DNA of 34,076 bases, taken from an uncultured SAR86 cluster bacterium (GTDB lineage: Bacteria > Pseudomonadota > Gammaproteobacteria > Magnimaribacterales > D2472). The position numbers were made by a program, and so were the translations under genes. Below are positions 18,322 to 28,019 of this stretch, one piece after another. Position 1 is the first letter of the stretch. Every line of letters starts with the position of its first letter. Below the pieces are notes generated by a model. It saw nothing but the letters and a program-made list of their open reading frames with translations, had not been told where the DNA came from and did not search any database. The stretch covers positions 1 to 34,076 of the forward strand of contig CACEDQ010000011.1 in NCBI GenBank assembly GCA_902558375.1. The letters are read 5' to 3'.

Positions 18322-18364
18322 GTACGTACATAATTTTGTTTTAATTATAGATATACCTTATAAT
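18322..18364 (+). promoter_or_regulatory. Promoter of the cytochrome oxidase operon
   Basis: TTGTTT (18336-18341) and a perfect TATAAT (18359-18364) are separated by 17 nt, about 50 nt before the coxB ATG. An 8-nt palindrome GTACGTAC (18322-18329) lies just upstream of the -35 and could be a regulator site. The rest of the 132-nt gap is AT-rich with no ORF. An AGGA ribosome site at 18403-18406 lies 8 nt before the ATG. Confidence 0.6.
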
Positions 18365-18414
18365 TGCATATAACCAAATTTTATTTTGTAAAGCACACAC
18401 ATAGGATAAAAAAG

Positions 18415-19560
18415 ATGTCTTTGAAATATTTTCATAATCTTCATTTAAAGATTTTTTCAGCATTGTTTGTTTTCGCATCTCCAATGCATGCAGACTGGTT
18501 CGCCTTGAATATGACAAGAGGCGTAACTGACATTAGTAACGAGGTATTTGAACTGCATATGCTTATCTTTTGGATATGCGTAGTAATTGGCGTAGTTGTA
18601 TTTGGCGTTATGTTCTATTCCATGTATGCACATACAAAGAAAAAAAATCCAGTAGCAGCTTCTTTTCATGAAAATCATAAGCTTGAAATAGCATGGACCA
18701 TAGTTCCATTTTTGATTCTTATCGCTATGGCCGTTCCTGCTTCAAAGACCTTAGTAAAAATTTACGATGATGAAGCTGGAGATGTAAACATACAGGTTAC
18801 TGGTTATCAGTGGAAATGGCAGTACAACTATCTTGAAGATGATATAAGTTTCTTTTCAAATCTCTCGACTGATATGGATGAGATTAACAATCTTGTTCCT
18901 AAAGGAGAGCACTACCTTCAAGAGGTAGACGAGATAGTCGTAATACCTGCTGGCAAAAAAGTAAGATTCTTGATTACAGCAAATGACGTAATTCATTCGT
19001 GGTGGATGCCAGCTTTTGCAATTAAACAAGATGCAATACCAGGTTTCGTGAATACTGCTTGGACTAAAGTTGACAAGCCAGGTGTATATCGAGGCAAGTG
19101 TACTGAGCTATGTGGCAAGAACCATGGATTTATGCCTATTGTTGTAAAGGTGGTTGAACAAGAAGAGTACAACCAATGGGTAGACGAAAAAAAACAAGCA
19201 GCTATTAAAATGGCAGAGCTCACTACGAAAGATTGGACAGCGCAAGAATTAGTTGAAAGAGGTGAAAGCGTATATGCAGTTAACTGTGTTGCATGCCACC
19301 AAACAAACGGACAAGGTATTCCAGGAATATTTCCTGCATTGGCTGGTAGCGATATTGTTATGAACCAAAAAGATAAAAATATTGAGATATTGATGGAAGG
19401 TGTTCAAGGAGCTGCAATGAATTCGTTTAGCTATTTATCTGAAGTAGAGCTGGCAGCTGTAATTACATATACCCGTCAGTCATGGGGAAATGCTGAAAAC
19501 GGAGATGGGGAAATAGTAGTTCCCAAAGATATCGTAGATTATAAAAAACCAAAGATTTAA
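18415..19560 (+). CDS. coxB: Cytochrome c oxidase subunit II with fused cytochrome c domain (caa3-type)
   Basis: Subunit II accepts electrons into the CuA centre and passes them to subunit I. With the ATG at 18415, behind AGGA, the 381-residue precursor has a signal peptide (cleavage likely after A26, 'PMHA'), two membrane segments (about 42-65 and 85-108), and the CuA domain with a histidine in 'VIHSWW' plus C229, C233, H237 and M240 in 'CTELCGKNHGFM'. The C-terminal third is a cytochrome c domain with 'CVACH' (C291, C294, H295) and a candidate methionine ligand in 'GAAMNSF'. This fusion lets the enzyme take electrons through its own heme c. An upstream in-frame ATG at 18364 is rejected because it overlaps the -10 box. 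Confidence 0.97.
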   Translation: MSLKYFHNLHLKIFSALFVFASPMHADWFALNMTRGVTDISNEVFELHMLIFWICVVIGVVVFGVMFYSMYAHTKKKNPVAASFHENHKLEIAWTIVPFLILIAMAVPASKTLVKIYDDEAGDVNIQVTGYQWKWQYNYLEDDISFFSNLSTDMDEINNLVPKGEHYLQEVDEIVVIPAGKKVRFLITANDVIHSWWMPAFAIKQDAIPGFVNTAWTKVDKPGVYRGKCTELCGKNHGFMPIVVKVVEQEEYNQWVDEKKQAAIKMAELTTKDWTAQELVERGESVYAVNCVACHQTNGQGIPGIFPALAGSDIVMNQKDKNIEILMEGVQGAAMNSFSYLSEVELAAVITYTRQSWGNAENGDGEIVVPKDIVDYKKPKI

Positions 19561-19581
19561 TATTAAAGAGAGTAAGTAAAT

Positions 19582-21165
19582 ATGAGCGCAGTAATAGAAA
19601 ATCATCATGACGATCATCATCATGGTCCGGCAAAGGGCTTGACCAGATGGTTATACACAACTAACCATAAAGATATAGGTACTTTATATCTATGGTTTAG
19701 TTTTGCTATGTTCCTAATTGGTGGGGCAATGGCATTGGTTATAAGAGCTGAATTGTTTCAGCCGGGCATGCAAATAGTTGAACCAGAATTTTATAATCAA
19801 ATGATCACACTGCATGGGTTGATAATGATTTTTGGTGGTGTCATGCCAGCTTTTGTTGGCTTAGCAAACTGGCTAGTTCCAATGATGATTGGTGCCCCAG
19901 ATATGGCTTTGCCAAGAATGAATAATCTAAGTTTTTGGATATTGCCTTTTGCTTTCTTTATTTTATTATCATCTTTGTTTATGGAGGGTGGAGCACCTAA
20001 CTTCGGTTGGACATTCTATGCACCTTTATCAACAACGTATGCACCTCCTAGTGTTACTTTCTTTATTTTCTCAGTTCATATAATGGGAGCCTCATCAATC
20101 ATGGGAGCTATTAATGTAGTAGTAACTATTATGAACATGAGAGCTCCAGGTGTTACGTTAATGAAAATGCCTTTGTTTGTATGGTCTTGGCTCATAACAG
20201 CTTATTTATTAATAGCCGTTATGCCAGTACTTGCTGGTGCAGTAACCATGATGTTAATGGATATACATTTTGGAACCAGTTTCTTTAATGCAGCAGGTGG
20301 TGGTGATCCTGTCTTATTTCAGCATATCTTCTGGTTCTTTGGTCACCCAGAGGTTTATATTATGATTCTGCCCGCCTTTGGAATTGTTTCTCATATAATT
20401 GAAACTTTTTCTAGGAAGCAGCTCTTTGGATATTCATCTATGGTTTGGGCGATGCTTTCGATTGCAATATTATCTTTTGTTGTTTGGGCCCATCACATGT
20501 TTACTGTTGGTTTGCCTCTCGCAGCAGAGCTATTTTTTATGTGGGCAACAATGTTAATTGCTGTTCCAACGGGAGTTAAAGTTTTCAACTGGGTTGCAAC
20601 GATGTTTAAAGGATCTCTTACATTTGAAACCCCAATGCTTTTTGCAATTGCATTTGTTGTTTTATTTACTATTGGTGGTTTATCGGGTCTGATGCTTGCC
20701 ATAGTGCCGGCTGATTTCCAATATCACGATACATATTTTGTTGTAGCTCACTTCCACTATGTATTAGTTCCTGGAGCTATTTTCTCAATAATGGCAGCTG
20801 TCTATTACTGGATACCAAAATGGTCTGGAAATATGTACGATGAAAGATTGGGCAAACTTCATTTCTGGCTATCTTTTATTGGCGTTAATGTTACCTTCTT
20901 CCCTCAGCACTTTATTGGGCTTGCAGGTATGCCTAGAAGATATCCAGATTACGCATTGCAATTTGCAGACTGGAACATGGTTTCTTCTGTTGGAGCTTTC
21001 TTGTTTGGTGTTTCTCAAATTTTATTCTTATTTATAGTTGTTAAGACTGTGATGGGTGGTAAAAAAGCAACTGATCAAGTTTGGGAAGGTGCAAGAGGTC
21101 TTGAGTGGACCGTTGCCTCACCTGCTCCTTATCATACATTTACAACACCGCCAAAAGTTGATTAA
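19582..21165 (+). CDS. coxA: Cytochrome c oxidase subunit I (A-type heme-copper oxidase)
   Basis: Subunit I holds heme a and the heme a3-CuB site where O2 is reduced and protons are pumped. The 527-residue product has the ligands H78 (heme a), 'GHPEVY' at 254-259 (H255 CuB; E257 and Y259 as in A-type pumps, Y cross-linked to H), H304-H305 (CuB), and 'HFHY' with H390 and H392 (a3 and a). 'TNHKDIGTLYLWF' at the N-terminus is typical. The first 15 residues are histidine-rich. cox11 starts inside the stop codon (TAATG). Confidence 0.98.
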   Translation: MSAVIENHHDDHHHGPAKGLTRWLYTTNHKDIGTLYLWFSFAMFLIGGAMALVIRAELFQPGMQIVEPEFYNQMITLHGLIMIFGGVMPAFVGLANWLVPMMIGAPDMALPRMNNLSFWILPFAFFILLSSLFMEGGAPNFGWTFYAPLSTTYAPPSVTFFIFSVHIMGASSIMGAINVVVTIMNMRAPGVTLMKMPLFVWSWLITAYLLIAVMPVLAGAVTMMLMDIHFGTSFFNAAGGGDPVLFQHIFWFFGHPEVYIMILPAFGIVSHIIETFSRKQLFGYSSMVWAMLSIAILSFVVWAHHMFTVGLPLAAELFFMWATMLIAVPTGVKVFNWVATMFKGSLTFETPMLFAIAFVVLFTIGGLSGLMLAIVPADFQYHDTYFVVAHFHYVLVPGAIFSIMAAVYYWIPKWSGNMYDERLGKLHFWLSFIGVNVTFFPQHFIGLAGMPRRYPDYALQFADWNMVSSVGAFLFGVSQILFLFIVVKTVMGGKKATDQVWEGARGLEWTVASPAPYHTFTTPPKVD

Positions 21166-21737
21166 TGAATCCTGAAGCCAAAAAAACATTAAGACGACTG
21201 GTAATAGCTGTTCCGCTTATGTTTGCCTTTGGCTTTGCTCTGGTACCTCTATACAACGTTTTTTGTGAGGTCACTGGCATCAACGGAAAGGTCTTTCAAT
21301 CAGATAATGCAGAAAAGCTGGTCATTGAAGATGGAAGGCCATTAGGACTTCAGTTCATCTCTACTAACAATGAAAATATGCCATGGACATTTAGACCTTC
21401 TGAAGATGTTATGACTATTTCTACTGGTAAATACTATACAGCTACTTTTTATGTAAAAAACACTACAAATAAGACAATGACTGCTCAAGCAGTTCCAAGT
21501 GTTGCACCTTCAAACGCTGCAGCACACCTTAAGAAATTAGAGTGTTTCTGCTTTGAACAACAAGAGCTGAAGCCTGGTGAAGACGCATTACTTCCAGTTA
21601 GGTTGCTGGTCTCAGATGAGCTTCCTGAAAATATTGAAAACATAATTTTATCTTATACAATTTTTGATGTTACTGAGTATGATGATGAGGCAGTTGCCCA
21701 GCACATGCACGAAGAACATCATGAAATGGAGCATTAA
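21165..21737 (+). CDS. ctaG: Cytochrome c oxidase copper chaperone Cox11/CtaG
   Basis: Cox11 delivers copper to the CuB site of subunit I. The 190-residue product has one N-terminal membrane anchor (about 12-30), a cysteine at C34, and the copper-binding 'CFCF' motif (C127, C129) in a periplasmic immunoglobulin-like domain. The last 20 residues (171-190) are acidic and histidine-rich (H180, H182, H185, H186, H190; M181, M188), a tail not usual for the family in my recollection and possibly metal-binding. It overlaps the coxA stop by 1 nt, and coxC starts 3 nt after its stop. Confidence 0.95.
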   Translation: MNPEAKKTLRRLVIAVPLMFAFGFALVPLYNVFCEVTGINGKVFQSDNAEKLVIEDGRPLGLQFISTNNENMPWTFRPSEDVMTISTGKYYTATFYVKNTTNKTMTAQAVPSVAPSNAAAHLKKLECFCFEQQELKPGEDALLPVRLLVSDELPENIENIILSYTIFDVTEYDDEAVAQHMHEEHHEMEH

Positions 21738-21740
21738 AAA

Positions 21741-22655
21741 ATGAGCGCACAAACTTATTACGTACCTGAACAAAGTAGATTCCCTATTTTCATGGCGTTA
21801 TCTTTATTTTTATTGGTAATGGGTGCTAGCAGCACAATTAACAATCTTGATAATCCAGACAGCAACTCAGCTTATATTTTATATGCAGGATTTATTTCAC
21901 TATTTACAACATTATTTTTTTGGTTTCGACAGGTTATTAAAGAACACCTAGCTGGGCTAGATAGCAACCAACTAAAAACATCCTATGTTTATGGAATGGC
22001 TTGGTTTATTTTTTCAGAGGTTATGTTTTTTGCAGCTTTTTTTGGAGCATTGTTTTACGTAAGAAGCTTTGCAGTTCCATGGTTAAGCGGTGAAGGTGAA
22101 AATGGTGTTGGTATTTCTGCAATTGGTTTGTGGGAGGGTTTTGAATCCTCGTGGCCTGTAATGACAACTCCAGACAAAGGTGCCGAATATGTTTTAGCAG
22201 AAAAAAGTATGGCTTGGCCTGGTTGGGGGCATGCATTAGAGTGGCTTCCACTATGGAATACAATTGTTCTGCTAAGCTCAAGTGTAACCGTTCATTTTGC
22301 CCATATTGGCCTTAAAAACGGAGATAGAAAAAAGTTTAATCGCTTCTTAGGTATTACAGTTGGCTTAGCTTTAATTTTTGTTGGTCTTCAGGCTGCAGAG
22401 TACTATGAAGCTTACGCTCATTACGGCCTTACATTAAACTCAGGTATTTATGGCTCAACATTTTTTATGCTTACTGGCTTCCATGGCTTCCACGTAATGA
22501 TGGGCGGATTTATGCTTGCAGTTATGTTGGCTAGATCAGTTTTTGCTGGACACTTTGAAGATCACGATCATTTTGGATTTGAAGCTGCCTCATGGTATTG
22601 GCATTTTGTTGATGTGGTCTGGGTAATGTTGTTTTTATTTGTTTATATATTGTAA
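21741..22655 (+). CDS. coxC: Cytochrome c oxidase subunit III
   Basis: Subunit III is a seven-helix protein that stabilises the oxidase core. The 304-residue product carries 'FIFSEVMFFAAFFGALFY' (with the conserved glutamate), 'LPLWNTIVLLSSSVTVHFAH', 'LQAAEYYEA', 'GFHGFHVMMGG' and ends 'SWYWHFVDVVWVMLFLFVYIL', all typical of the family. A loop of about 50 residues between the second and third conserved blocks is usual in this bacterial subgroup. It ends 3 nt from the convergent DUF2909 gene. Confidence 0.97.
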   Translation: MSAQTYYVPEQSRFPIFMALSLFLLVMGASSTINNLDNPDSNSAYILYAGFISLFTTLFFWFRQVIKEHLAGLDSNQLKTSYVYGMAWFIFSEVMFFAAFFGALFYVRSFAVPWLSGEGENGVGISAIGLWEGFESSWPVMTTPDKGAEYVLAEKSMAWPGWGHALEWLPLWNTIVLLSSSVTVHFAHIGLKNGDRKKFNRFLGITVGLALIFVGLQAAEYYEAYAHYGLTLNSGIYGSTFFMLTGFHGFHVMMGGFMLAVMLARSVFAGHFEDHDHFGFEAASWYWHFVDVVWVMLFLFVYIL

Positions 22656-22910: not shown

Positions 22911-23612
22911 ATGAATTTTAAAAAATTTAATCCAGGAAAAAAAATAACTGTCTTTTTTATTGTTTTTGCTACAACTTTTTTTCTTCTTGGCCTGTGGCAG
23001 GTTGAAAGAGGCCATGAAAAATCAAATTTAATTGAACAGTTTAATAGTAATATCACAAAGACTCCCAAATCAATTTCAGAGGAATCTTCTAAATGGGATA
23101 GAGTCATAGTCAAAGGAGTGTGGAAAGGGTCTAAGCAGATACTTATTGATAATGTTATAAGTTCTGGCATTGCTGGATATAAGGTTTTAACACCTTTACA
23201 GATCAATGAAACAGAAACATACATATTGGTTGATCGTGGTTGGATTTCCCAAGGCAAGTCTAGAGATACCTTGCCTGGAATTGATATCAAAGATGAATAT
23301 GTTGAAGTGAATGGAATTCTTGAAGATCCAGAGCTTGGTTTTGTATTGTCAGAAGATCTAGTTACTGATAATTGGCCCAAGGTTTCACAGACAAAAAACC
23401 TTGACGTTTTGAGAAAGGAGTTTGATGAGCAATTGTCTTCATATATTTTAGTTGCAGACCCCACATTAAAAAGTAGTCTTGCTTATATAAAAATTGTTCC
23501 AAGCAATATGACGGCTGAAAAACATTTTGGATATGCCATTCAGTGGTTCACAATGTTTATTGCATTATGTTTAATGTATTTATGGATAGGATTTAAAAAA
23601 AATGAAGAATAA
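22911..23612 (+). CDS. SURF1-family cytochrome oxidase assembly protein
   Basis: SURF1 helps insert heme a into subunit I. The 233-residue product has the two-anchor layout: an N-terminal segment with 'LLGLWQVERGHEK' and a C-terminal segment preceded by 'KHFGYAIQWFTMF', both family signatures, with a periplasmic domain holding 'YILVDRGW' between them. The ATG at 22911 is preceded by another ATG at 22897 that opens a 7-codon reading frame only, so it is not used. It overlaps the next gene by 11 nt. Confidence 0.94.
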   Translation: MNFKKFNPGKKITVFFIVFATTFFLLGLWQVERGHEKSNLIEQFNSNITKTPKSISEESSKWDRVIVKGVWKGSKQILIDNVISSGIAGYKVLTPLQINETETYILVDRGWISQGKSRDTLPGIDIKDEYVEVNGILEDPELGFVLSEDLVTDNWPKVSQTKNLDVLRKEFDEQLSSYILVADPTLKSSLAYIKIVPSNMTAEKHFGYAIQWFTMFIALCLMYLWIGFKKNEE

Positions 23613-24150
23613 GATATTTTTAGCAATTCTTTTATTAACACCAATCTTGGTAGTTACTTTTTCGTCTCTTTATTTTGCTTTGGGGTATTCCCCTGAAGGA
23701 ACAAAAAACAATGGCGTATTTTTTAAAAGCTATTTTAATTTTGAGCAGTTTAACAATGTAAAAAATGAGAAGCTTATTGAGTTTGAAGATGGTAAGTGGG
23801 TTATGGGTGTATATATAACCGATATATCAAAGTCAAAAGAATCACTTTATTTAATGAGGCAGTTAAATGTTGCACTTAATAGAGACATATACAAGGTTAA
23901 GCGCGTTGCTTTCTTTTCAAACCTTCAATTAAAAACTGAGATTGATGTTTTAATCCAGGAATATCCAAGAACTGAATTGGTCAATGATAAAAACGGCGTA
24001 TTAATTAATGTACTTCAAAAAAACTCAACTCTGGATATGTTTCAAGAAAATCCTATTTTTATAATTGATCCCTATGGCAGGGCGGTAATGTATTTCAATC
24101 CCGGAACAGATCCAAAGAAAATTCTTAAAGACTTAAAGGTACTAATCTAA
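23602..24150 (+). CDS. Unknown oxidase-locus protein, membrane-anchored, thioredoxin-like, no cysteines
   Basis: I recognise this gene by position only: Pseudomonas has an uncharacterised gene (PA0111, from memory) at the same place between SURF1 and ctaA. The 182-residue product has one N-terminal membrane anchor (about 5-28) and a periplasmic domain. 'KWVMGVYITDI', then 'SLYLMRQLNVAL', and a C-terminal 'PIFIIDPYGRAVMYFNP' followed by 'DPKKILKDLKVLI' resemble the strand-helix pattern of SCO/thioredoxin proteins ('LLDPNG' in the SCO gene downstream). There is no cysteine anywhere in it, so it cannot work by thiol chemistry or as a CxxxC copper site. It overlaps SURF1 by 11 nt and ctaA by 1 nt, so it is translated with the assembly factors. 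A role in oxidase biogenesis is inference. Confidence 0.85.
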   Translation: MKNKIFLAILLLTPILVVTFSSLYFALGYSPEGTKNNGVFFKSYFNFEQFNNVKNEKLIEFEDGKWVMGVYITDISKSKESLYLMRQLNVALNRDIYKVKRVAFFSNLQLKTEIDVLIQEYPRTELVNDKNGVLINVLQKNSTLDMFQENPIFIIDPYGRAVMYFNPGTDPKKILKDLKVLI

Positions 24151-25124
24151 TGAATAATATTAAAAATTTATCACTTTTTGGAATATGCTTAGCATTTGTG
24201 GTTATTGCATTAGGAGCCTGGACTAGGCTTGTAGATGCAGGTCTGGGCTGTCCAGACTGGCCCGGATGTTATGGCTTTGTTGTTTTTCCAACCAATGAGG
24301 CTGAGATAGCTATAGCTGAGGCTAGATATCCAACATTTCCATATGATATAAACAAAGCAATCCCCGAAGTAGTGCATAGATACTTTGCAGCCGCCCTAGG
24401 CTTTCTAGCAATAATCATGGTTTATTATTCTTTTAAGCAAAACGAGAATAAAAATATTAGACGTTGGACAATAGGCTTGTTAATTTTTATTTGTTGTCAG
24501 GGTCTTTTTGGTTATTTAACTGTTAGTTTATTGTTGTTACCTATAATAGTTACTGCCCATTTGTTTGGCGGTTTTACTACTTTAACTTTATTTTTTCTTA
24601 TTTTTTTAATGTCGGGTAAATTTGATATTTTAGAGAAAATGGCAATTCCAAAGTTAAAGACTATTGCGGGATTAGCGCTTGCAGTTTTACTCTTTCAGAT
24701 TTTTTTAGGAGTTTGGACAAGTACAAATTATGCTTCTTTGGCCTGTGCAGATTTTCCAACCTGTCAGGGAACTTATATGCCAGAAATGGACTTCAAAAAT
24801 GGATTTAATCTTAATCAAGAAGTTGGGCCAAATTATTTATATGGACTATTAGATAATCCTTCTAGAGTAGCGATTCATTATTCACATAGGGTTTCAGCGA
24901 TTCTAGTTACCGTGGTTTTTTTAATTCTTATTTCAAAACTCTGGTTTTCCAACGCTGCTCCTCTTGCGTCAACAATTGGAATTCTTTTATTAACCCAAAT
25001 TAGTTTGGGCATTATTAATGTTGTGTATGTATTGCCGTTATACGTGGCAATAGCACACAATCTAGTTGCTGCTCTGTTGTTATTAACTATTTTTACAGTT
25101 AATTATTTAGCTTGGAAAAAATGA
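24150..25124 (+). CDS. ctaA: Heme A synthase (CtaA/COX15 family)
   Basis: CtaA oxidises the C8 methyl of heme O to a formyl group to give heme A. The 324-residue, eight-helix product has the histidines of the two heme sites ('VVHRYF' with H76, 'AHLFGGF', 'HYSHRVSA', 'AHNLVAALLL') and cysteine pairs in both halves ('GCPDWPGC', C34 and C40; and 'CADFPTC'). Its ATG overlaps the preceding stop by 1 nt, and ctaB begins within its stop (ATGA), giving tight coupling of the two heme A steps. Confidence 0.96.
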   Translation: MNNIKNLSLFGICLAFVVIALGAWTRLVDAGLGCPDWPGCYGFVVFPTNEAEIAIAEARYPTFPYDINKAIPEVVHRYFAAALGFLAIIMVYYSFKQNENKNIRRWTIGLLIFICCQGLFGYLTVSLLLLPIIVTAHLFGGFTTLTLFFLIFLMSGKFDILEKMAIPKLKTIAGLALAVLLFQIFLGVWTSTNYASLACADFPTCQGTYMPEMDFKNGFNLNQEVGPNYLYGLLDNPSRVAIHYSHRVSAILVTVVFLILISKLWFSNAAPLASTIGILLLTQISLGIINVVYVLPLYVAIAHNLVAALLLLTIFTVNYLAWKK

Positions 25125-25984
25125 AACTCTTAAGAAGCTACTACCTGCTCTGTAAGCCTAATGTGGTTTATATGATGCTTATTTGCGCTTTGGTAGGAAT
25201 GCTTTTGGCTGAAGAAACAATTAGCTCAGTTTCAACAATTTTAATCGCATTAATTGGAATTGCTTTGTGTTCGGGGTCAGCCGCTGCAATCAATCAAGTA
25301 ATTGATAGAAAAGCAGACGCGGCCATGACTCGAACTGACCAAAGACCTCTACCTCAAGGAGAGCTTAGTGCACTTCATGCTTCTTCTTTTGCTTTGGTGA
25401 TTGGGGTCGCAGGAGCTTTAATATTATTCCTATACATAAATACATTAACAATGATCTTAACCCTTGCATCATTAGTTGGTTATGCATTTATTTATACTGT
25501 ATATCTTAAAAGAGCAACGCCTCAAAATATCGTAATTGGTGGCTTAGCAGGAGCGGCGCCTCCTCTATTGGGTTGGACTGCAATTTCCAATACGATAGAT
25601 CCCTACGCACTTTTATTGGTCCTAATAATTTTTGTTTGGACTCCGCCACACTTTTGGGCTTTGGCAATCTATCGAAAAGAAGAATATGCAAAAGAGTCTA
25701 TCCCAATGCTTCCAGTTACCCATGGGGTTGCATTTACTAAACTTCAAATCGTTTTGTACACAATTATATTATTTATCGTTAGTGTTCTCCCATACATAGT
25801 ATTAATGTCTGGAGTCATTTATCTAGTTTCAGCCATAATACTTAGTTCAATATTTATGTACTATGCACTGAAGTTATATTTTACCGATGACGATGCTGTT
25901 GCAATGAAAACATTTAATTTTTCAATCTATTATATTTTTCTAATATTTTTAGCTTTGTTGTTAGACCATTATCTTGTGCAATGA
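25121..25984 (+). CDS. ctaB: Protoheme IX farnesyltransferase (heme O synthase)
   Basis: CtaB attaches a farnesyl group to heme B to make heme O, the substrate of CtaA. With the ATG at 25121 the product is 287 residues. The UbiA-type motif N58-x3-D62-x3-D66 in 'NQVIDRKADAAMTRT' binds the diphosphate through Mg2+, followed by 'RPLP'. 'YTVYLKRATPQNIVIGG' and 'GAAPPLLGW' are also typical. The frame extends to a TTG at 25112, but the ATG overlapping the ctaA stop is preferred. SCO1 starts inside its stop (ATGA). Confidence 0.96.
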   Translation: MKLLRSYYLLCKPNVVYMMLICALVGMLLAEETISSVSTILIALIGIALCSGSAAAINQVIDRKADAAMTRTDQRPLPQGELSALHASSFALVIGVAGALILFLYINTLTMILTLASLVGYAFIYTVYLKRATPQNIVIGGLAGAAPPLLGWTAISNTIDPYALLLVLIIFVWTPPHFWALAIYRKEEYAKESIPMLPVTHGVAFTKLQIVLYTIILFIVSVLPYIVLMSGVIYLVSAIILSSIFMYYALKLYFTDDDAVAMKTFNFSIYYIFLIFLALLLDHYLVQ

Positions 25985-26619
25985 AAGCAATAAATAGAAA
26001 CTTATTACTAATAGCTATTTTCATGATGACCGTTCTTGGTTTGTTTATTAATAAACTGACAACACCAAGAACGCTTTCTAATGATGAGTTGCTTGTTAAT
26101 GGTTTGTTTTTATTCAACGAACCAAAACAAATATCAGATTTTGAATTTTTTTCATCCAAACAAAAGGCATTTACAAAAAATGACCTCATTGGTAAGTGGA
26201 CTCTAATGTATTTTGGTTTTACAAAATGTCCCGATGAATGTCCAACAACGATGTATCAACTATCTAAACTGATAAAAGTACTTAGAGACAAAGACTATAA
26301 ATTAGATGATAAGCAATGGGTTTTGGTATCAATTGATCCTGAAAGAGATACCCCAGATATGATAGATAAATATGCCAAGGGGTTTGACAAAGATTTTATT
26401 GGTGTAAGCAATGCTAGACCAATGCTCTTAAGTTTAGCTACCCAGCTATCAGTTAATAACGTGATGCCAAATCACTCAAATCAAATGGATCACTCCCATT
26501 TAGATAATCATGTAAACAATATTATCTTATTGGATCCAAATGGGGATTTTGCTGGAATATTTAGACCGCCTTTTGATATTTCAAGGCTTTCTTTAACTTA
26601 TCAATCTGTTACAAATTAA
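25981..26619 (+). CDS. SCO1/SenC-family copper chaperone
   Basis: SCO proteins deliver copper or act as thiol reductases for the CuA site of subunit II. The 212-residue product has an N-terminal anchor (about 8-24), a thioredoxin fold, the copper-binding 'CPDEC' (C83, C87) in 'YFGFTKCPDECPTTM', and the histidine ligand at about H177 ('DNHVNNIILLDPNG'). Three more histidines (H165, H171, H173) and two methionines sit just before it. It is the last gene of the oxidase operon and overlaps ctaB by 4 nt. An inverted repeat spans its stop codon. Confidence 0.95.
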   Translation: MKAINRNLLLIAIFMMTVLGLFINKLTTPRTLSNDELLVNGLFLFNEPKQISDFEFFSSKQKAFTKNDLIGKWTLMYFGFTKCPDECPTTMYQLSKLIKVLRDKDYKLDDKQWVLVSIDPERDTPDMIDKYAKGFDKDFIGVSNARPMLLSLATQLSVNNVMPNHSNQMDHSHLDNHVNNIILLDPNGDFAGIFRPPFDISRLSLTYQSVTN

Positions 26620-26666: not shown

Positions 26667-28019
26667 ATGGATAATTCAAAAAGACTATTTATGAAACGTG
26701 CAGGACAGTCTTCTGCAATGTTAATGTTATTCGCATATGGTGGAGGCAAGTTATTTGCTGCTAACAATCCAATATCATCAAAGACAAAATGGGATGGACT
26801 TTTATTAAAAGATCCAAAAGCTTTATTTGATTTGCCTAAAGATTTTTCATACAAAGTGATTATGTCCACTGGTGATCTAATGACAGACGGTCTTAAATAT
26901 GGAGGTAGGCCTGATGGAATGGGTGCTTTTGAATTAAAAGACGGCTCAGTGGCTTTAGTGGTTAATCATGAGACAAAAAGTAAAGATAAAAATTTAGAAC
27001 TTTCAACATCCTATAACGATTATAATGGCAGACCTTTTTCAGGCGGAACAAGCACCATTGTTCTTGAGTCAGATGGTTTGACTTTAAGGCGAGCCAACAG
27101 AAGCCTTTCAGGAACGATCGACAATTGTGCCGGTGGAACTACCCCGTGGAATACATGGATTTCATGTGAAGAAACATATAGAGAAAATCACGGCTATGCT
27201 TTTGAAGTAGATCCAGAGGCTGATTCACTTAAAGGCTATAAAAGATTAACCCAGATGGGCAGATTTCAAAGAGAAGCAATAACAGTTGATCTAAATGATC
27301 CAAATGGAACTGTTTACCAAACTGAAGATGATTACAGCGGCTTATTCTATAAGTTTGTACCAAACAAAAAGAATAATCTCAGCGGAAGAGGAAAGTTATA
27401 TGCACTAAAAATACCGGGAGTTGAAAATACCTCAAACAAAGATGGGTTGATTCGTGTCGGAGACAATTTCCCTGTTGAATGGGTTCGTATAAAAGACCCT
27501 TTGGCAAAATCTACCAAAACCAAAATTCAAGGTAAAAAAATTGGCGCTTCAATTTTTAATGGAGGGGAAGGAATTATTTTCACAAATGACAAAAATATGA
27601 CAACCAACATATTCTTTACTTGTAAAAAAGGCGGCAAGGCTGGCTTGGGACAAATTTGGAAGTATTCACCTGTTAAATCAGAAATATCACTCTTCTATGA
27701 ATCTGATAACGCTAGTAATCTTTGGGAGGGCGACAACATAAATATTACTCCATGGGGAGACTTGATAATATGTGAAGATAATGGCAGTAATGCCTGCAAG
27801 CTTATTGGTTGTACCCCCAACGGGACTCTGTATCCTCTAGGTAGAGTTGCAGGAAATAACAGTTCAGAAATAGCTGGCATATGTTTTTCACCTGATGGAA
27901 AAAATATGTACCTTAATATACAAGATAGGGGTAAAACTATAGCTGTTACTGGTGATTGGAATAAAATCAGAGAATATAGGAATGAGCTTGATTCAAACTT
28001 GGTTCACTATAATTCTTAG
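26667..28019 (+). CDS. PhoX-like (DUF839) exported protein, putative phosphatase
   Basis: DUF839 includes PhoX, a calcium- and iron-dependent secreted alkaline phosphatase common in marine bacteria. The 450-residue product is shorter than classic PhoX (over 600) but shows the family stretches 'LVVNHET', 'NCAGGTTPWNTWISCEE', 'EDDYSGLFYKFVP', 'GGEGIIF', 'WEGDNINITPWGDLIICED' and 'EIAGICFSPDGKNMYLNIQ', a beta-propeller pattern. The N-terminus 'SKRLFMK' (4-10) followed by a hydrophobic stretch and 'LFAAN' looks like a Tat signal with KR in place of the twin arginine. It is 47 nt from SCO and ends over the convergent qor by 4 nt. Whether it hydrolyses phosphate esters is not shown by the sequence. 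Confidence 0.85.
   Translation: MDNSKRLFMKRAGQSSAMLMLFAYGGGKLFAANNPISSKTKWDGLLLKDPKALFDLPKDFSYKVIMSTGDLMTDGLKYGGRPDGMGAFELKDGSVALVVNHETKSKDKNLELSTSYNDYNGRPFSGGTSTIVLESDGLTLRRANRSLSGTIDNCAGGTTPWNTWISCEETYRENHGYAFEVDPEADSLKGYKRLTQMGRFQREAITVDLNDPNGTVYQTEDDYSGLFYKFVPNKKNNLSGRGKLYALKIPGVENTSNKDGLIRVGDNFPVEWVRIKDPLAKSTKTKIQGKKIGASIFNGGEGIIFTNDKNMTTNIFFTCKKGGKAGLGQIWKYSPVKSEISLFYESDNASNLWEGDNINITPWGDLIICEDNGSNACKLIGCTPNGTLYPLGRVAGNNSSEIAGICFSPDGKNMYLNIQDRGKTIAVTGDWNKIREYRNELDSNLVHYNS

Follow-up and report, generated by a model that had tools for sequence, protein, structure and literature searches.

The membrane-anchored, thioredoxin-like oxidase-assembly factor TlpA of Bradyrhizobium is a thiol reductase with active-site cysteines, which reduces ScoI and the oxidase subunit II (CoxB) before copper insertion (excerpts of PMC6696091 and PMC9145763). 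Proteins of the SCO1/SenC family (PF02630) carry a CxxxC motif and a ligand histidine, and the available portions of a survey of thioredoxin-fold proteins (PMC2757866) give three-residue spacing of the cysteines for SCO1-type proteins only. Cys-less thioredoxin folds in general are already known. In the same portions of the survey, 22% of 4,082 sequences lack any Cys motif or are too unusual to tell, and the Cys-less proteins mostly make up whole other superfamilies (such as GSTs). Plants offer a precedent for loss within SCO proteins: Arabidopsis HCC2, one of two mitochondrial SCO homologues, has lost the motif cysteines and the histidine, a common feature in plants, while five other cysteines are kept, and COX activity is independent of HCC2 (excerpts of PMC3971200). 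Closest to the gene described here is a family that already has a name in NCBIfam, the 'PA_0111/PP_0108 family redox-active disulfide protein' (NF058629). An excerpt of PMC13128677 states for PA0111 that 'no experimental data are available', and the excerpts of PMC5436846, on the caa3 oxidase of P. aeruginosa, make no mention of it.

The SAR86 protein that we analysed resembles TlpA as a membrane-anchored, thioredoxin-like candidate factor for oxidase assembly but has no cysteine. It shares with HCC2 the loss of the motif cysteines, whereas it is an operon-locked orthologue and wholly Cys-free. Unlike the Cys-less superfamilies, its loss occurred inside one orthologous family at a fixed place. 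As far as the open-access literature was searched, such an operon-locked, wholly Cys-free orthologue standing in place of a thiol protein is new; neither a study of the family's function nor a report of a Cys-free form was found in the open-access PMC literature.

The window, a stretch of 34,076 nucleotides, comes from an uncultured SAR86 cluster bacterium, of a group that is abundant in the sea; its genome (1.0 Mb) is 72% complete. Below, f1 denotes the window's family, and f2, f3 and f4 the other three families of the same SAR86 order. The features of the operon are the following.

18364-19560, + strand: oxidase subunit II, with CuA ligands CTELCGKNHGFM and heme-c motif CVACH (read from translation)
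19582-21165, + strand: oxidase subunit I (read from translation)
21165..21737, + strand: Cox11/CtaG (PF04442, E 3e-44)
21741-22655, + strand: oxidase subunit III (read from translation)
22911..23612, + strand: SURF1, with an 11-nt overlap with the 23602-24150 gene (PF02104, E 2.9e-34)
23602..24150, + strand: Cys-free protein of 182 aa assigned to the PA0111 family, with a predicted SCO-like thioredoxin fold and membrane anchor (ATG start, ORF translation)
23605..23679, + strand: predicted N-terminal membrane helix of this protein, residues 2-26 (AlphaFold2; pLDDT 92-94 for residues 1-20 and 71 for residues 21-30)
24150..25124, + strand: ctaA (heme A synthase), retaining both Cys pairs, CPDWPGC and CADFPTC (PF02628, E 3.5e-72)
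25112..25984, + strand: ctaB (heme O synthase), listed start TTG (PF01040, E 1.5e-65)
25981..26619, + strand: SCO/SenC, with CPDEC at residues 83-87 (26227-26241) (PF02630, E 9.5e-29)

The operon thus runs from subunit II through subunit I, Cox11, subunit III, SURF1, the 23602-24150 gene, ctaA and ctaB to SCO, with Cox11 placed between subunits I and III of the oxidase block (18364..22655). The Pfam scan covered Cox11, SURF1, CtaA, CtaB and SCO, and subunits I-III were identified by reading their sequences; a profile built from 21741-22655 found homologues upstream in many related loci. By sequence, the oxidase is of the caa3 type because subunit II has both the CuA ligands and the heme-c motif. 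The start of ctaA at 24150 overlaps the end of the gene by 1 nt (TAATG), and the 182-aa product contains zero cysteines. Coordinates and translation therefore bear out the earlier note on these overlaps and on the missing cysteines. CtaA Cys pairs of this kind lie in two extracellular loops (excerpt of PMC8239418).

NF058629 matches the gene with 39.9 bits (E 3.8e-10), well short of its curated cut-off of 230 bits. This cut-off is narrow, as 160 of 275 genomes of the class match at E <= 0.001 and one passes. The SAR86 protein has the sequence homology, the domain, the membrane anchor and the place between SURF1 and ctaA that mark the family, but the redox-active Cys pair that gives the family its name is absent. 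Judged from homology and gene order, it is the SAR86 form of the gammaproteobacterial PA0111/PP_0108 family. The earlier note had called the gene uncharacterised, which is right for experiments, as far as we found, though the family is already named.

No Pfam family was found for the protein at E up to 1, so the PF02630 gathering score was not reached, and a PDB sequence search gave no match at E up to 10. In profile comparisons, an alignment of the 35 f1 sequences alone matched the SCO alignment with a probability of 96.7% (E 3.7e-10) and the Cys-bearing family at E 1.2e-29, f4 matched SCO at E 8.6e-9, and the Cys-bearing family matched SCO at E 2.4e-23. The SCO-like C-terminal pattern reported from the window, IIDPYGRAVMYF in the gene and LLDPNGDFAGIF in SCO, is supported by this f1 match, both stretches being part of the homologous domain. 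Eight chosen Cys-bearing relatives were also scanned against Pfam; three (L037, L055 and L032) passed the SCO1-SenC cut-off, two matched it below the cut-off and three had no family. The same scan gave no SCO match in two Cys-free relatives (L066 and L099).

An AlphaFold2 model built from the window protein and 56 relatives (pLDDT 84.6, pTM 0.71) has the membrane helix followed by a thioredoxin domain. Compared with solved structures, SCO chains take ranks 1-7 by Z (13.0 to 12.3), led by Thermus Sco1 (Z 13.0, rmsd 3.2 over 139), yeast (12.9) and human (12.7), followed by a DsbE-like protein (Z 11.7) and TlpA (Z 11.4-11.5). Ordered by Foldseek E-value, peroxiredoxin fills the first two rows and BsSco the third. 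The model of a Cys-bearing relative from Zooshikella (L223) agrees, with Streptomyces Sco as its first match (Z 13.2). The thioredoxin-like, SCO-related fold and the membrane anchor proposed from the window alone are thus supported by the model, the structural matches and the profile comparison. Fold and profile homology tie the protein to SCO1/SenC, yet the CxxxC and ligand His of SCO are missing from it, and a separate SCO with both follows ctaA and ctaB in the operon. Similarity of fold does not by itself show function.

The place of the gene was followed in 160 loci (35 from f1, 5 from f4, 5 from f2, 6 from f3 and 109 from outside the SAR86 order). In 152 of them SURF1 precedes the gene on the same strand, in agreement with the earlier claim of a fixed operon place, and CtaA was found downstream in 122. 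The eight loci without upstream SURF1 are L012 and L013 (f1, at contig ends), L047, L095, L115, L154, L156 and L157. Of another 40 regions, 36 gave a SURF1 homologue, 34 CtaB and 21 CtaA. Among the 275 class genomes, the family and CtaA occur together in 158; two genomes (G300 and G301) have only the family, 22 have only CtaA and 93 have neither of them (Fisher p 6e-49, uncorrected for kinship). Co-occurrence with heme A synthase is thus near-obligate (158 of 160), and with SURF1 and CtaA as the usual neighbours we did not find homologues widely away from oxidase loci. The 102 genomes among the matches listed all belong to the same class. Four genomes (G126, G117, G274 and G087) have two family copies at different loci (L094/L095, L102/L103, L114/L115 and L124/L125), and upstream SURF1 was not found for the copies L095 and L115.

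The survey outside the SAR86 order covered 149 loci, drawn from 142 of the 156 class genomes with a match; L339 is truncated ahead of the motif, which leaves 148 for the count. A CxxxC motif is present in 145 of these, two have another spacing (L326 and L329, with CxxxxC and CxxxxxxC) and one, L099, has no cysteine. The Cys positions were verified on the family profile, and the CxxxC sits just ahead of the 'LYxxRQ' helix. The best 80 of 94 named-genome loci all have CxxxC (79 verified by column; L164 was omitted as a fragment); no search pattern used for these contained the Cys columns, although the query alignment was made of Cys-bearing sequences. The 80 include many members of f2 and f3, and some of the 80 coincide with genomes counted elsewhere. 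Counterparts with cysteines directly ahead of 'YLxRQ', of the kind that the earlier note had suggested, do occur in the family; an example is L031, the locus of the only one of the 275 class genomes above the NF058629 cut-off, which reads CNESCRELVYLARQ.

Within the SAR86 order, the pair is present in all members of f2 (8/8) and f3 (8/8) and in none of f1 (0/35) or f4 (0/8). All 35 f1 members have no cysteine anywhere in the protein and share a two-residue gap at the motif (35/35), which the five f4 members aligned do not have. The absence of cysteine goes beyond chance, since 43 of 43 members of f1 and f4 lack the pair, which almost every other member examined has; this lineage retained the protein and lost the thiol site, as had been supposed. 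L099 (genome G064), the Cys-free member outside the order, is flanked by SURF1 and CtaA, and the motif of its SCO is unusual (CAMLC).

The simplest and favoured account, based on gene trees, would be one thiol loss in the ancestor of f1 and f4 and a separate one in L099, because both the RpoB and the SCO trees make f1 and f4 sisters. The RpoB tree (26 rows, omitting L242 and the shorter L268) does so with support of 95/95 and a p-AU of 0.038 for the contrary grouping, and the SCO tree, from 51 of 131 sequences, with 100/99. A tree of four operon genes (Cox11, COX3, CtaA and CtaB; 33 rows) places f4 with f2 and f3 (98/97), and the union of f1 and f4 is not rejected by it (AU p 0.051). Two independent losses within the order would be a less simple account.

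The gene was matched in 59 of 61 related genomes and has an internal stop in none. Its median dN/dS is 0.068 (21 usable of 55 pairs), lower than the 0.173 of SURF1 (from 35 pairs) and higher than the 0.039 of CtaA (from 22). The pair sets differ between genes, and dS comes close to saturation (median 1.46 in the pairs used). This is a real gene under purifying selection, and judged by selection its protein still works. Across the 35 f1 sequences, 41 residues are invariant, and variable and frozen positions fall into distinct segments.

23818..23841, + strand: former active-site loop, residues 73-80, aligned with CxxxC and variable in f1 (mean entropy 2.13 bits, 35 sequences)
23842..23895, + strand: frozen helix 1 region, residues 81-98, SLYLMRQLNVALNRDIYK (mean entropy 0.45 bits, 35 sequences)
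24067..24096, + strand: frozen beta-hairpin DPYGRAVMYF, residues 156-165 (mean entropy 0.41 bits for residues 157-166)
24112..24147, + strand: frozen C-terminal helix, residues 171-182, PKKILKDLKVLI (mean entropy 0.11 bits for residues 173-182)

Residues 106-120 are variable too in the 35 f1 sequences (2.24 bits, close to the value of the old loop). In the comparison set, which excluded the known Cys-free sequences, both Cys columns are invariant (198 of 198). Constraint has thus gone from the thiol site and is kept on the rest of the domain, as a docking role predicts. The hairpin (1.60 bits) and the C-terminal helix (1.49 bits) are the best-kept segments in Cys-bearing members as well, and a new interface is thus not required to explain them; their conservation may reflect an ancient interface, or a demand of folding, that outlasted the thiols.

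We consider it reasonably likely, with ample room for doubt, that the SAR86 protein, a form of a thioredoxin for oxidase assembly, serves without thiols or catalysis as a docking or scaffold protein. Members of the family would pair a single membrane helix with an SCO-type thioredoxin domain in the periplasm, and the ancestral member was most likely a TlpA-like thiol-disulfide helper for copper or heme insertion, because it combines a CxxxC without the SCO ligand His, a membrane-anchored SCO-like domain and a place in the oxidase operon. The pair would have been lost in the common ancestor of f1 and f4 and the protein retained, the thiol step having become unneeded or been taken over by others (DsbD is present and SCO has its CxxxC). 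With thiol chemistry impossible in f1 and f4, binding is the simplest function to have been retained, and the protein probably works there by binding partners. An assembly partner, which could be SURF1, CtaA, SCO or apo-subunit II, would dock on helix 1, the DPYGR hairpin and the C-terminal helix. Loss of the cysteines alone is no proof of such a role, because some thioredoxin-fold proteins without the pair are catalytic (portions of PMC2757866), and the frozen segments may reflect folding and not binding.

A different account, which we regard as possible but doubtful, takes the ancestral protein as the redox partner of SCO and couples the thiol loss to a remodelling of the copper/thiol site of SCO that freed it of an external reductant. 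Every SCO sequence read from f1 and f4 retains CxxxC, and a glutamate precedes the second cysteine (CPxEC) in 30 of 30 f1 and 8 of 8 f4 sequences, against 0/8 in f2, 0/7 in f3, 0/61 in named-genome loci and 0/16 in others (a 17th has no readable motif). At seven SCO columns, f1 and f4 together have a fixed or almost fixed residue (36-38 of 38 sequences) that is rare in the other 93; three of these columns lie near the site, namely those of this glutamate, of a tyrosine six before the first Cys and of an asparagine two after the ligand His. However, a control with nearly the same rule (a gap limit was added) gave 10 of 327 columns in CtaA, 5/171 in COX3, 1/229 in SURF1, 0/181 in CtaB, 2/173 in Cox11 (where the f1 and f4 group has 10 rows only) and 6/176 in the Cys-free protein itself. 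Because CtaA and COX3 changed comparably, the SCO change is suggestive only and not exceptional in number, and it is the position of the changes that hints at coupling. Even this must be read with care, as residues conserved in both groups tend to be near active sites anyway, the change lies on a single, unreplicated branch, and the SCO of Cys-free L099 has CAMLC, with no glutamate. A broader version of this account, which we hold to be speculative and rather unlikely, would make the PA0111 family an unrecognised SCO-partner thioredoxin of gammaproteobacterial aa3/caa3 assembly, and part of SAR86 would have rebuilt the copper site of SCO and made this protein a pseudo-redoxin scaffold free of thiols, so that assembly could do without its electrons.

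Carriage of a metal or cofactor fits the protein less well, and docking is favoured over it because no plausible ligand set is conserved. The position between SURF1 and ctaA and the co-occurrence with CtaA would suit a carrier of heme, or heme A, between CtaA and SURF1, but the fold matches are SCO, thiol-disulfide and peroxiredoxin proteins, and no His is invariant in the 35 f1 sequences, where the only conceivable ligands that we see among the invariant residues are Met163 and Tyr71 or Tyr158; we find such a carrier improbable. Of the structural or heme/protein-binding role that the earlier note had put forward, a binding or scaffold function is what the conservation pattern best supports, and the heme part finds no positive support. 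An SCO-type copper chaperone with other ligands, for which the SCO-like fold speaks, is more improbable still, since the protein has no cysteine and no conserved residue eight before DP, the place of the SCO ligand His. That the gene is a decaying relic, retained by chance in a compact operon, could be argued from the vanished active-site motif and from the small size of f1 genomes (0.9-1.5 Mb), yet this is the least credible of the explanations: the frame is open in 59 of 61 related genomes, dN/dS is below that of SURF1 in the same operon, and so many residues are invariant. Overlaps of only 11 and 1 nt mean that the neighbours do not explain this constraint.

The family occurs in 160 of the 275 class genomes sampled and is almost invariably accompanied by heme A synthase. 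In SAR86, its thiol chemistry is naturally separated from its other function, which makes testable the question of whether the CxxxC is needed for oxidase assembly or docking is the essential part.

Several other possible causes or correlates of the thiol loss were considered and set aside. Loss of the periplasmic reductant source is unsupported, as DsbD was found in 57 of 61 relatives, f1 members and all of f4 (8/8) among them (the four without a match belong to f1). Loss of the CtaA Cys pairs is likewise unsupported, both pairs being kept in f4 (5/5) and in L099; in f1, a simple count of Cys spacing gives at least two pairs in 34 of 35 loci and one pair in the last. Loss of the chaperone PCuAC was rejected as a correlate, since among the 61 relatives it was found in 6 of 8 f2 members only and is missing from f3 as well as from f1 and f4.

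Some minor features of the neighbouring genes accompany these results. Numbered along the L061 ORF, eight of the ten switched CtaA columns of f1 and f4 fall within positions 34-102, in about the N-terminal third of that ORF. In the window, SCO is immediately followed by a gene in the same orientation for a PhoX-type protein (26667-28019; PF05787, E 1e-61). In the SCO of many f1 genomes (25981-26619 in the window; L269-L294), the ligand His is immediately preceded by an insert rich in His and Met, such as PDHSNHMDHSHLDNHVNN in L269. This insert might bind copper; no PCuAC was found in these genomes.
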